Source of the DNA: a virus
Length of the DNA: 64,000 nucleotides
Virus record (IMG/VR): IMGVR_UViG_3300046519_000190
Location: 46,852 to 110,851 of that record
Direction: 5' to 3' (one strand)
Each line of letters opens with the position of its first letter. Position 1 is the stretch's first letter. The position numbers and the translations under genes are program-made. Positions 53,238-64,000 of the stretch are shown here, in pieces. The notes under the pieces are model-generated. The model searched no databases, had not been told where the DNA came from, and saw only the letters and a list, made by a program, of their open reading frames with translations.

Positions 53238-53313
53238 TGGCAGGCCATGATGGACTCGAACCACCAACCAGCGGGTTTGGAATCCGCCGCTCTCCCAATT
53301 GAGCTAATGACCT
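53238..53313 (-). tRNA. tRNA-Trp (CCA)
   Basis: A 76-base cloverleaf with encoded CCA. Acceptor AGGTCAT pairs with ATGGCCT (one G-U). D-stem GCTC/GAGC, T-arm GGTGG-TTCGAGT-CCATC. Anticodon loop TTCCAAA gives CCA. The anticodon stem has an A31-C39 mismatch. Confidence 0.93.
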
Positions 53314-53318
53314 ATGTT

Positions 53319-53404
53319 TGGTGGATGAAGATGGTATCGAACCACTAGCCAGAGGCGGCGCATTTACAGTGCGCTGTGACTTGCCCAGTCACTCTACTTC
53401 ATCC
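53319..53404 (-). tRNA. tRNA-Tyr (GTA)
   Basis: An 86-base class II tRNA with long variable arm. Acceptor GGATGAA/TTCATCC, discriminator A, encoded CCA. Anticodon loop CTGTAAA gives GTA. Confidence 0.94.
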
Positions 53405-53409
53405 AAAAC

Positions 53410-53487
53410 TGGTTGCGGGAGCTGGATTTGAACCAGCGACCTTCGGGTTATGAATCCGGCGCTCTAACCAAGCTGAGCTATCCCGCA
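53410..53487 (-). tRNA. tRNA-Met-like (CAT)
   Basis: A 78-base tRNA with encoded CCA. Acceptor TGCGGGA/TCCCGCA, so position 1-72 is paired (T-A), unlike initiator tRNA. The 3' half (CATAACCCGAAGGTCG, then GGTTCAAATCC) is very close to bacterial initiator tRNA, whereas the D-arm is elongator-like. Stem positions 27-43 (C-A) and 31-39 (A-C) are mismatched. Elongator Met is most likely; Ile2 (lysidine) is possible. Confidence 0.85.
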
Positions 53488-56111: not shown

Positions 56112-56187
56112 CGGGTTGTACGAGAATTGGGATATCGGCCAAGCGTGGAGCTTGGTGTTGGTGGAGGTTCGAGTCCTCCCAACCCGA
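56112..56187 (+). tRNA. tRNA-like cloverleaf, anticodon TGG (Pro-like)
   Basis: 76 bases with acceptor CGGGTTG/CAACCCG, discriminator A and no encoded CCA (CCG follows). T-arm GGAGG-TTCGAGT-CCTCC is perfect. The anticodon arm CCAAG-CGTGGAG-CTTGG gives TGG, but base 33 is G instead of T, and the D-arm has only three pairs and lacks conserved bases. It may be a degenerate tRNA-Pro or a tRNA-mimic within the RNA array. Confidence 0.5.
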
Positions 56188-56253
56188 CCGAATTCGTCAG
56201 GCGTGGCGATGTTGTGCTGGTAAGTTTGTTGTGGCTCGAACAGGTGTAATGAA

Positions 56254-61665: not shown

Positions 61666-62085
61666 TCAGCGCACGCTTTTGAGAAGCGGGATCGTCTTCT
61701 GTGTGGTCAAGTCATAGATGGCAGTGGCTTTCTCAATGGCCTTTTGGACATCGGTAGGCATGTGTGTCTGGAGCTTGTTCATGGACTGTGTTTCGAGCAC
61801 CAGGATGTCACGCGCCAATCGTTTGATTTCCTGACTCCGGGTTTTGGCTTGCTCGATAGCCTTGTGACGGTGAATCTGGATCTGCATGTAGTCGTCTTCG
61901 TCGTGGGGGTCGAGTCCGCCATTCTCAGCAAGCCGGCGAAGCCGGGCTTCGTGTAACTGGGCGTCCCCGTATTGGTTCAGGGCTTTACGCTGGTGGGGCG
62001 TGTGGAACCCGAGTTTATTCCACAGGCGTTCAAGTCCGTTACGGGGTTTGGGCATTTCGAAGTGGTCGTGTAAGGGCTTAGGCAT
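61666..62085 (-). CDS. Charged hypothetical protein
   Basis: 139 residues, basic N-terminus (MPKPLHDHFEMPKPRNGLER), then long charged helices (AIEQAKTRSQEIKRLARDIL). Could be coiled-coil. Preceded by the direct-repeat region at 62099-62207. Function unknown. Confidence 0.73.
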   Translation of the reverse strand: MPKPLHDHFEMPKPRNGLERLWNKLGFHTPHQRKALNQYGDAQLHEARLRRLAENGGLDPHDEDDYMQIQIHRHKAIEQAKTRSQEIKRLARDILVLETQSMNKLQTHMPTDVQKAIEKATAIYDLTTQKTIPLLKSVR

Positions 62086-62207
62086 GTTGGTCTCTCTTGT
62101 GTAAGGGGTTACGTGGTTAAGTGTTATGTGGCTACGTGGTTAAGTGTTTACGATCCGGCTGTGTAAGGGGCTATGTGGTTAATTCCTACTCCTGGTTGTG
62201 TAAGGGC
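62068..62207. repeat. Iteron-like direct repeats
   Basis: GTGTAAGGG occurs at 62068, 62099, 62161 and 62197. In two cases it is extended as GTGTAAGGGG-(T/C)TA(C/T)GTGGTTAA. ACGTGGTTAAGTGTT occurs at 62111 and again near 62134. No open frame uses them. They could be protein-binding iterons of an origin, or regulator sites; no gene was found from 62086 to 62319. Confidence 0.6.
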
Positions 62208-62273
62208 TGTTCCTGGGAGTCCGGGACAATGGCGCCAATAGGGCCACACTTTCAAACTACCATCTAAGACTTT

Positions 62274-62301
62274 GACAACTTACTCCAACTAGTAAGTTGT
62301 C
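62274..62301. promoter_or_regulatory. Perfect 11-bp hairpin at the left edge of the GG/CC-free tract
   Basis: GACAACTTACT (62274-62284) and AGTAAGTTGTC (62291-62301) pair perfectly around CCAACT. The last CC before the GG/CC-free tract is in this loop. No T-tract follows on the minus strand. Confidence 0.6.
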
Positions 62302-62319
62302 TTATATATTAACTAACAA

Positions 62320-62646
62320 CTAGTGTGCAAACTTAGCGCACAACTTAGCGCGTACAATAGCGCGTATATCAGAGCGCATTGTATATACACTAGTGCGAGT
62401 GCAACTAACATCTAGTGCGATGCGTACAACATGACGCTTGATAGCGTCATATACAGCGCTTGCACTAGCAGCGTCTAACATCACACTAACGTTATCAGAG
62501 CGATGCAGATAGTAACGCTTATGAGCGCGCACATAGCGCAATTGAAAAAGCGCGTTACTTGCGCACGTCACATAGTAGCGACGATCTGTTACGAGCGCGC
62601 TAGCGTGCGCTGTGAGACGTTTTGCGTGTGTCATGCTCATACTCAC
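62320..62646 (-). CDS. Hypothetical protein lacking Gly, Pro and Trp
   Basis: 108 residues at most, starting at one of three closely spaced Met or GTG codons (MSMSMTHAKRLTAHASALV). Arg/Ala/Val/Tyr-rich and basic. It has no Gly, Pro or Trp because their codons need GG or CC, and no Glu. There is no clear ribosome site, so its status as a gene is less certain than its neighbour; the alternative is a noncoding part of the tract. Confidence 0.55.
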   Translation of the reverse strand: MSMSMTHAKRLTAHASALVTDRRYYVTCASNALFQLRYVRAHKRYYLHRSDNVSVMLDAASASAVYDAIKRHVVRIALDVSCTRTSVYTMRSDIRAIVRAKLCAKFAH

Positions 62647-62658
62647 TGCTTGAATCAG

Positions 62659-62691
62659 AGAAAAGCGCTCTCAGACGATCTGAGAGCGCTT
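62659..62691 (-). terminator. Strong intrinsic terminator made without GG or CC
   Basis: AAGCGCTCTCAGA and TCTGAGAGCGCTT form a perfect 13-bp stem with loop CGA, and TTTTC follows on the minus strand. Its stem alternates G and C, in keeping with the surrounding constraint. Confidence 0.88.
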
Positions 62692-62705
62692 GTGTGTGCG
62701 CTTGA

Positions 62706-63260
62706 TTAAGCGCTGTAAATCGCAATCAACTCTTTGAGTACAACTGCATCTTTGTTCAAGTTGATAGTCTTTTCAGACTTCGAGTAAGTTGCGAAGTTGA
62801 AGAAGATCGCGCACGTTTTGAAATACTGCGCTTGCGTAGTAGTTTCGTGTTGCATTTGTGCGCGCACTTGTTCAAGCGTCATGCTCACTGCATCTTTTGC
62901 GACGATGAATTGCAGCACAGCGTCAAGCGCACGATCGTTAACTTTTTGTTTGTTTGCGATTGCTTCGAGAATCGCAATCGAACGCTTTTTCAGTTCACGC
63001 GATTGCTCAGAAAGTTGCGCAGCGTCAACTTTGTACTTGCTCAGACTTGCGAGCGCTTTTTCGCTCATGTTCGACAGCGCTTCTGTGTAGCGCTCGTGAG
63101 TCGACGCAGTTTTAGCAGTAGCGTTGAAGCTAACGCGCTCTTCATCAGACTGCGCTTGCTCAGCTTGCTGCAAAGCTTGCGTTTTAGTGTTGCTGTAGTT
63201 CACAGCAGCGTTAGCGAAAACTTCTTTAAAAGATGCAGCTTTAGCATTGATAGTAGTCAT
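62706..63260 (-). CDS. Helical hypothetical protein lacking Gly, Pro and Trp
   Basis: 184 residues from the ATG at 63260, ribosome site GAGAG. MTTINAKAASFKEVFANAAV; Ala/Gln/Lys/Ser/Glu-rich, predicted almost fully helical, with Cys only in FKTCAIFF. Gly, Pro and Trp are completely absent, which is extraordinary for this length. A strong promoter lies about 80 bases upstream and a strong terminator follows, suggesting an abundant, possibly early, product. Not recognised. Confidence 0.85.
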   Translation of the reverse strand: MTTINAKAASFKEVFANAAVNYSNTKTQALQQAEQAQSDEERVSFNATAKTASTHERYTEALSNMSEKALASLSKYKVDAAQLSEQSRELKKRSIAILEAIANKQKVNDRALDAVLQFIVAKDAVSMTLEQVRAQMQHETTTQAQYFKTCAIFFNFATYSKSEKTINLNKDAVVLKELIAIYSA

Positions 63261-63337
63261 GATAATACTCTCTCGTTGTGAGCTTCGCGATATTGCGAAG
63301 TCTCTGCAAGTCGCGTTGTGCGTCTTGCTTGAAATGA

Positions 63338-63367
63338 ATATTAGCAGACTCAAAGTCCTGTGCAAGC
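63338..63367 (-). promoter_or_regulatory. Strong sigma-70 promoter for the 63260 gene
   Basis: On the minus strand TTGCAC (63367-63362), 18 bases, then TAATAT (63343-63338). CGCTTGCAC extends the -35. It sits exactly at the right edge of the GG/CC-free tract. Confidence 0.78.
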
Positions 63368-63589
63368 GATTTTTCGATTATTTCTCAGATCGGAAAAGCA
63401 TAAGCTTAGATCGAAAAAATGCTTGCTCTGCAAGCGTTCACTGTGATAGTCGCGCAGCGCGCACATAGATAAACGACGTTCCGGCTCAGAACTGGCTTTT
63501 CGGCATTTTGTGGCTAAAGCCCGGTTTCGGGCCACATTCCGAGGCAAGCCGCGGCTTGGGTTCCCGTGGAAAATAAATCGAAAAAACGC
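63368..63589. promoter_or_regulatory. Divergent intergenic region with palindromes
   Basis: No gene was found here. TTGCTCTGCAAGCG near 63424 forms a short dyad and another AACGCTTGCA word on the minus strand, a possible second promoter. GCCCG-GTTT-CGGGC and the palindrome AAGCCGCGGCTT lie at 63516-63560. The plus-strand half returns to normal GG/CC frequency. Confidence 0.5.
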
Positions 63590-63617
63590 TTGCAACCGTC
63601 CCGTGGCGTCCTAGAAT
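63590..63617 (+). promoter_or_regulatory. Sigma-70 promoter for the 63644 gene
   Basis: TTGCAA (63590-63595), 16 bases, TAGAAT (63612-63617), preceded by AAAAAACGC. Ribosome site AAAGGAG follows. Confidence 0.68.
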
Positions 63618-63643
63618 GAACACATACCAAAGGAGATACCGCA

Positions 63644-63859
63644 ATGAACTCAATCACCTCGCTCTTCCTGTCCATGATGATCGTCTGCCTCGCCATCCCA
63701 GCCGCCCTCGCCGTGACCGGCGCAACCGCCCAAGGCGCCCGGGAGCGCGCCGCGGAAATCCGCTACCAGGAAAAATCCGGGACTGCCAAGCTAAACGGGG
63801 CCATTTTCCGGGCCAACCTCAAAGCCGCGGCCAAAGCCTGCCCCAACTGCCAAATGTGA
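63644..63859 (+). CDS. Small exported or membrane-anchored protein
   Basis: 71 residues after AAAGGAGATACCGCA. The N-terminal hydrophobic stretch (LFLSMMIVCLAIPAALAVTG) followed by ATAQGA could be a signal peptide or an anchor. The mature part is basic and ends KACPNCQM, with a CxxC. Function unknown. Codon and GG/CC use is GC-rich, in sharp contrast with the tract to its left. Confidence 0.75.
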   Translation: MNSITSLFLSMMIVCLAIPAALAVTGATAQGARERAAEIRYQEKSGTAKLNGAIFRANLKAAAKACPNCQM

Positions 63860-64000
63860 CCCAAACCCGCCCAAGGGCCACCAAAAGGCTGGCCCGCCCT
63901 GAATCCCTCCCAATGTGACTCCCAAGCTCCCACGGGCCATCCCACGGCCCAAGGCACCCGGCGACCCCGCAGGCAACCATAGGCGGCTCCATAGAGCCGT
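63860..64000. other. GC-rich window end with hairpins
   Basis: GGGCCA..TGGCCC, CGGGCC..GGCCC and CGGCTC-CATA-GAGCCG are successive hairpins. No T-tract and no supported gene. It could be the leader of a further plus-strand gene or a structured end region. Confidence 0.4.

Follow-up and report, generated by a model that had tools for sequence, protein, structure and literature searches.

A kilobase-scale locus purged of a variable GG motif in a family of phages and phage-plasmids

A GG- and CC-free tract in a Nickievirus contig

Why should a kilobase of phage DNA, genes and intergenic signals alike, contain neither GG nor CC? The DNA in question lies in the final 64 kb (the window) of a 110,851-bp virus contig. 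Core-gene identity and synteny place this contig in Nickievirus, the genus of Pseudomonas syringae phage nickie: identities to nickie were 91% for DnaE, 96% for TerL, 91% for the capsid protein (MCP), and 80% for gene A, described below. Direct counting revealed no GG and no CC in the 1070 bp from 62287 to 63356, exactly as the first-pass annotation had reported; approximately 128 sites are expected at the window's own rate. Within this tract, GC occurs 118 times and CG 87 times. The banned motif, NGGN, is absent from both strands, and the bounding dinucleotides are CC at 62285 and CC at 63357. The next longest GG/CC-free run in the window was 102 bp, and no second tract of this kind was found in the remainder of the contig. 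Searches of the tract for Rfam families gave no match. The late genes lie on the minus strand of the window; "genome orientation" below refers to the reverse complement of the window.

The tract contains two genes, both on the minus strand. Gene A (62706-63260) is an ORF of 184 residues that lacks Gly, Pro, and Trp and for which homologs were found. Gene B (62320-62646) is a 108-residue ORF with a GTG start that had no match in family searches; it is optional within the family, being missing from B1VFA and X66. Between the two lies a hairpin, AGCGCTCTCAGATCGTCTGAGAGCGCT (62664-62690, minus strand), the probable gene A terminator, which is also free of GG and CC. A sigma70-like gene A promoter, TTGCAC-N16-TAATAT (63338-63365, minus strand), contains the tract-ending GG in its spacer: this sense-strand GG is the CC at 63357 on the + strand, between the -35 and -10 elements. 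The promoter spacer, which is not transcribed, tolerates GG in several Nickieviruses. At the gene B end, an AT-rich hairpin (62274-62301, minus strand) holds the tract-ending CC, at 62285, in its loop. The extent first described for the ban, over coding and noncoding DNA and the terminator, stands; the promoter is not a necessary part of it, as shown by the GG in the gene A spacer. Beside the tract, a small ORF of 71 residues with a signal-peptide-like start (63644-63859) lies in DNA that is unusually rich in GG/CC. Elsewhere in the window, tRNA genes for Trp, Tyr, Met, and Pro occur at 53238-53487 and 56112-56189; Trp and Pro are among the residues absent from the tract proteins.

Gene A belongs to no family of known function in Pfam or PHROGs. 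AlphaFold2 models were confident for both gene A families (pLDDT 95.0 and 92.4). Both comprise a helical N-terminal domain and a C-terminal winged helix; in the window's gene A (pLDDT 95.0), the N-terminal domain is all-helical. Based on the latter model, the product is predicted to be a winged-helix DNA-binding protein and does not appear to be an obvious enzyme. A fold search of the PDB with the model returned winged-helix regulators only, with weak scores. Among viral models, there was a match to a single uncharacterised protein (E = 9e-4) and a weak one to a RepL-domain protein (E = 0.16); no sequence match to RepL was found. Alignment of the two gene A families using hhalign gave a short C-terminal match only.

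Conservation of the ban and variation of its motif

GG/CC-free tracts of 1083-1137 bp occurred at the same gene and place in all five of the other independently sequenced Nickievirus genomes examined. In the most distant pairs of tracts, the aligned DNA was 57-60% identical, with more than 400 substitutions, and the number of GG/CC sites was still zero. The question posed by the first-pass annotation, whether relatives keep the absence despite divergence, is thereby answered in the affirmative. An assembly artefact, which it had also considered, is refuted by the same-place tracts in these five genomes and in Rhizobium phages.

The Rhizobium phages belong to the same wider lineage (capsid 45-57% identical) and have tracts of 0.8-1.3 kb with zero to few GG/CC sites. 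That of V1VFA-S is 1279 bp long with no GG/CC, and that of N1_10 is 1146 bp long with two sites; the tracts of Y2_11, X66, and B1VFA are similar, and that of RHEph10 has slightly more sites. The tract gene of these phages has the size and place of Nickievirus gene A, with no blast or profile match between the two. In genome orientation, gene A points rightward in Nickievirus and leftward in the Rhizobium phages. The latter also have a second gene A homolog approximately 2-3 kb from the tract (L015:21680-22600, L019:7539-8375, and homologous places), in which GG/CC is ordinary.

To how much of the lineage does the rule apply? Its genomes are siphophages and phage-plasmids of about 100-120 kb, and the viral contigs are mostly metagenomic. 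Scanning for a UvsW-like helicase yielded 80 additional loci, and a profile search identified 70 gene A-type ORFs among all loci. One IMG/VR contig (215,656 bp; L091 and L113) seemingly contains two related phage genomes head to tail. Across the gene A-type ORFs, the GG/CC ratio ranged from 0 to 0.95. In the middle group, the leftover GG was mostly GGT or GGG and was equal between strands (GGA 9/TCC 12, GGC 21/GCC 17, GGG 35/CCC 24, and GGT 106/ACC 100).

An unsupervised search of 48,528 degenerate 4-mers identified, for each locus in turn, a GG-core motif that was absent or almost so. The banned motifs were NGGN, NGGV (GGT allowed), DGGN (CGG alone allowed), HGGM (approximately 15 loci), HGGC, GGB (GGA allowed), and, in SSU5, VGGK/MGGB. 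Using each locus's own motif, tract lengths were 0.5-1.7 kb, most of them 0.8-1.7 kb, and the longest motif-free run exceeded the second longest of the same locus by a median of 8-fold. The search involves multiple testing, yet many loci yielded the same motif, and MGGB was also absent in relatives outside the discovery set. In SSU5-type elements from Klebsiella and E. coli, MGGB was the top motif in each, with tracts of 1300-1384 bp, and one MGGB-banning element of this type was only 53% identical in protein. In all, some 40 further loci of the lineage, enterobacterial SSU5-type and Acinetobacter phage-plasmids among them, have a homologous tract of 0.8-1.7 kb from which a lineage-specific GG-core motif is absent on both strands; these loci are related, so the counts are not independent. 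Across relatives, what is excluded is an xGGy motif that differs by lineage, with plain GG as its strictest form. This family of phages and phage-plasmids keeps approximately 1 kb at a conserved site, around one gene, purged of the variable motif.

Homologs that contain GG/CC freely, named at the outset as counter-evidence, were seen only as paralogs outside the tract and in a few lineages, most of which still lack a narrower xGGy motif. The ban is absent in ANB28, L083, L093, and L111, and partial in L092, L095, and L109. When synonymous codons were simulated with the protein fixed and codon usage taken from the locus, gene A had 0 motif sites as against about 20-54 expected (z = -6 to -10), so the protein sequence is not the cause of the motif's absence. 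The V1VFA paralog outside the tract had 144 sites for 150 expected (z = -0.8). Protein-driven composition was ruled out based on the simulation and these normal paralogs. Selection on nucleic acid, as first proposed, is borne out and can be narrowed to the DNA itself: the ban is strand-symmetric, acts at the synonymous level in coding and also in noncoding DNA, and survives saturation divergence. An RNA-level rule, considered from the placement of the sigma70 promoter, was rejected: GG and CC are equally depleted, and the zone stays put when gene A is inverted.

Is the ban a trait of the phage or of its host? L061-type elements, which are phage-plasmids of A. baumannii, ban DGGN, and the L062-type tract, which matches a plasmid of A. 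baumannii AR_0056, bans HGGM. MGGB is banned in common by SSU5-type elements of E. coli, Klebsiella, and Salmonella. With two bans within Acinetobacter and one ban across three enterobacterial hosts, the ban is a property of the phage and not of host immunity. The first-pass annotation had suggested evasion of type I-F CRISPR (PAM 5'-CC) or of restriction, or avoidance of GGA-type (RsmA/CsrA) or G-run RNA binding. We consider each of these explanations extremely improbable. Bans follow lineage rather than host, differing between Acinetobacter lineages, one of which keeps approximately 25 GG/CC in gene A; Rhizobium phages obey as well, and a single fixed kilobase, approximately 1 of 110 kb, is affected. 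As for RNA binding, sense-strand GG and CC are equally depleted, and GGA-type sites are tolerated both in L063 and in the SSU5 type (AGGA and CGGA). In restriction-site avoidance by phage genomes, selection on DNA likewise removes a short motif, but the effect is genome-wide and host-dependent, whereas the ban here is local, non-palindromic, and dependent on phage lineage. The closest precedent for immunity evasion is the depletion of CC/GG PAMs in P. aeruginosa phages targeted by I-F systems (PMC12174588); that depletion is mild, genome-wide, and host-linked, whereas the present one is total, confined to one fixed zone of approximately 1 kb, directed at a phage-specific motif, and unrelated to the immune system of the host.

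The edge site and candidate agents

A conserved edge site, AAGTCTTAG (62264-62272, minus strand; AAGTC[C/T]TAG in relatives), adjoins the tract. Every tract-bearing genome that was examined in full has a single copy of this 9-mer; it invariably lies on the genome + strand and marks the right-hand edge of the tract, regardless of the direction of gene A. To its right lie, in order, a CC-rich box (62206-62260, minus strand), in which CC recurs every ~10 bp on the genome + strand, and three to five direct iterons (CCCTTACACA or CCTTATAC). In the window, the iterons are CCCTTACAC(A), spanning 62068-62206 on the minus strand with copies at 62068, 62098, 62160, and 62197; their equivalents in relatives are CCTTATAC. 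The iterons are clustered at the edge site only, with few copies elsewhere, an arrangement that characterizes iteron-type origins. Phage ANB28 retains AAGTCTTAG, but its tract is not motif-free; there, GTTCAGC-type repeats form a GG/CC-free array of 174 bp (L018:15624-15798) to the left of a non-homologous gene that occupies the position of gene A.

The flanks of the tract are polar. At 38 related loci, counted without correction for relatedness, CC on the + strand was the nearest flanking motif on the left in 30 cases (30:8), and GG on the + strand was the nearest on the right in 29 (29:9); past these first sites, both flanks have mostly CC on the + strand. Contig ends lie within 800 bp of the tract in 2 of 23 near-complete contigs, where 0.6 are expected, and in the present contig, a small excess. 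Ends within a few hundred bases were noted at window 63357-64000 and in L037, L038, L051, and L085; perhaps genomes end, or assemblies break, there. Public virome reads of E. coli LF82 (ERR8973296; PMC9928086) include some from phage-plasmid Cyrano, at the depth of plasmid background.

That the motif is wholly missing from both strands over approximately 1 kb implies a heavy cost for even one site and points to an enzyme more than to a binding protein. We infer that a phage-encoded enzyme of xGGy specificity acts near the edge site and that a single target inside the tract carries a very high cost. The first-pass annotation's third hypothesis, a requirement of a phage DNA-modifying or nicking enzyme, survives in this form. 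Candidates encoded by every full genome compared include the terminase, DnaG, RuvC, ParB-like proteins, and four families of unassigned function.

Gene A itself is present in nearly every tract and evolves fast. Being a predicted winged-helix protein, it might bind xGGy and coat or shut down DNA except for its own operon. We regard such a silencer as very unlikely: occasional sites should be tolerable for a binder whose core is two bases, the paralogs outside the tract are normal in GG/CC, and the edge of the zone is at a site outside the gene.

The zone also tracks the gene A operon, measuring 1279 bp in V1VFA, which has gene B, and 851 bp in the related B1VFA, which does not. This behaviour would fit an operon kept unmodified: if the phage modified xGGy sites and thereby blocked transcription or another early step, gene A, as the first gene needed and perhaps an RNA-polymerase or replication factor, would have to lie on DNA that escapes modification. 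The tolerance of GG in the untranscribed promoter spacer of several Nickieviruses agrees with this scheme, as does a both-strand, zero-tolerance, lineage-specific motif with fixed neighbours, as for a modification enzyme. The sharp edge at AAGTC[C/T]TAG and the iterons are left unaccounted for, however, and neither the annotated shared genes nor the scanned shared families, four of which are of unassigned function, included a recognisable base-modification enzyme. We hold this explanation to be possible but unlikely.

The iterons, restricted to this site, bring to mind a lytic replication origin, with gene A as a RepL-like initiator, the iterons and AAGTC[C/T]TAG as the origin, and a tract devoid of start sites for primase or another replication enzyme. 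The predicted winged helix and its weak structural match to a RepL-domain protein are consistent with this role. Primase sites are similar in format to xGGy: PMC12839067 mentions 5'-(G/T)2GTC for T7 primase, and template specificity is set by the zinc domain (PMC10557236). A DnaG-type primase was encoded in 27 of 27 genomes tested. Nevertheless, priming does not explain the intolerance of one site on either strand, and T7 has no GTC-free zone, that is, no zone free of its own primase sites. Moreover, a bidirectional origin was predicted to show convergent polarity, and on the left side of the tract the polarity was opposite to that expected of bidirectional priming.

A comparison of two Acinetobacter lineages also bears on the primase. 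Their phrog_2500, DnaB, DnaG, and ligase were 98-99.6% identical and their other core genes 35-79% (TerL, 75%; TerS-like, 46%), a pattern that points to a recent exchange of a replication module; the block is found in G006 (L173-L178) and G009 (L179-L184). DnaG and DnaB are thus 99% identical in two phages with different bans, which is suggestive, not decisive, evidence against DnaG, DnaB, ligase, and phrog_2500 as the agent. Against primase it speaks only weakly because the stricter tract (DGGN) also lacks HGGM and so fits both bans. Overall, an origin seems a doubtful explanation of the tract.

Another phage nuclease of xGGy specificity, such as a RuvC-type Holliday-junction resolvase or a ParB-like protein, might instead leave the zone uncut or unresolved during recombination-dependent replication. 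A RuvC homolog was present in 27 of 27 genomes, two ParB-like proteins are encoded near the tract in the genomes compared, and C|C dependence is on record for a resolvase of the RuvC fold (MOC1, PMC7078210). We think this quite unlikely: a resolvase cuts junctions only, which makes the extreme strictness hard to explain, and the RuvC and ParB-like proteins are without established specificity.

Our leading, though tentative, proposal is that the tract, as a terminal repeat or processing zone, has to be devoid of cleavage sites for a strand-cutting enzyme of the phage, most likely the terminase. The tract would be, or would sit within, a direct terminal repeat made at packaging. Anchored at the edge site and iterons, the terminase would nick opposite strands at xGGy sites on either side of the tract, and a polymerase would copy the repeat, extending from the 3' ends. 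Since nicking of either strand within the repeat would destroy the end, the repeat would have to be site-free. The banned motif would drift with the specificity of the terminase, and gene A and its operon would sit in the repeat as terminal, probably early, genes.

We rank the terminal repeat first based on the inverted edge sites, the literature on staggered nicks, and the typing of a Nickievirus. Specifically, the inverted nearest sites are the geometry that would be expected of staggered opposite-strand nicks, at which terminal repeats have been described to arise by extension synthesis (PMC5557969), and Nickievirus Nican01 is listed as "DTR (long)" in PMC11256456. Further support comes from the zero tolerance on both strands even with the protein fixed, from the median 8-fold lead of the longest motif-free run, from the constant placement of the tract relative to AAGTC[C/T]TAG, from bans that go with the phage rather than the host, from the terminase, which is present in all full genomes compared and divergent between the two Acinetobacter lineages, and, to a small degree, from the contig ends near the tract. 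Counting against it, xGGy sites abound in the remaining genome, which would require the enzyme to act only locally; packaging alone does not explain the invariable gene A; both flanks bear mostly + strand CC past the first sites; and neither T5 nor T7 displays such an exclusion. An analogy to T5-like first-step transfer was tried and rejected, the terminal repeat of T5 having no banned motif.

Known systems and significance

We know of no terminal repeat described as motif-purged, and that of T5 is not; nor do we know of a motif-free zone at iteron origins of the P1 RepL or lambda O type. Such origins go with an initiator gene and share with the present locus a DNA-binding gene beside a cluster of direct iterons. 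The likeness to the direct terminal repeats of T7, T5, and SPO1 (PMC5557969) is that of a defined unit adjoining a fixed site. Recognition sites of the T7 gp4 primase and MOC1 type are similarly short and have a strict central dinucleotide; for this type, no zone of a genome is reported to exclude them absolutely, and T7 does not have one. No description of a GG-motif-free zone was found in the literature searched. To our knowledge, the tract ranks among the most absolute sequence exclusions in natural genomes.

On balance, we favour the view that the locus is a new cis-acting element, a "self-exempt zone", in which an operon and its adjoining site are kept free of sites for the virus's own fast-evolving GG-core enzyme. 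If so, the banned motif of each genome would be a readable record of the specificity of this enzyme. Hundreds of phage-plasmids in public records make the exclusion accessible to study: an SSU5-type gene A is present in 753 plasmid records, and 153 Acinetobacter plasmids match the L061-type gene. Phage-plasmids are mentioned in PMC9600943 as spreading resistance genes. Banned motifs that record enzyme specificity would give access to a hidden step in the life cycle of these elements, making testable how their ends are formed, how their replication starts, and how a virus protects critical DNA of its own.
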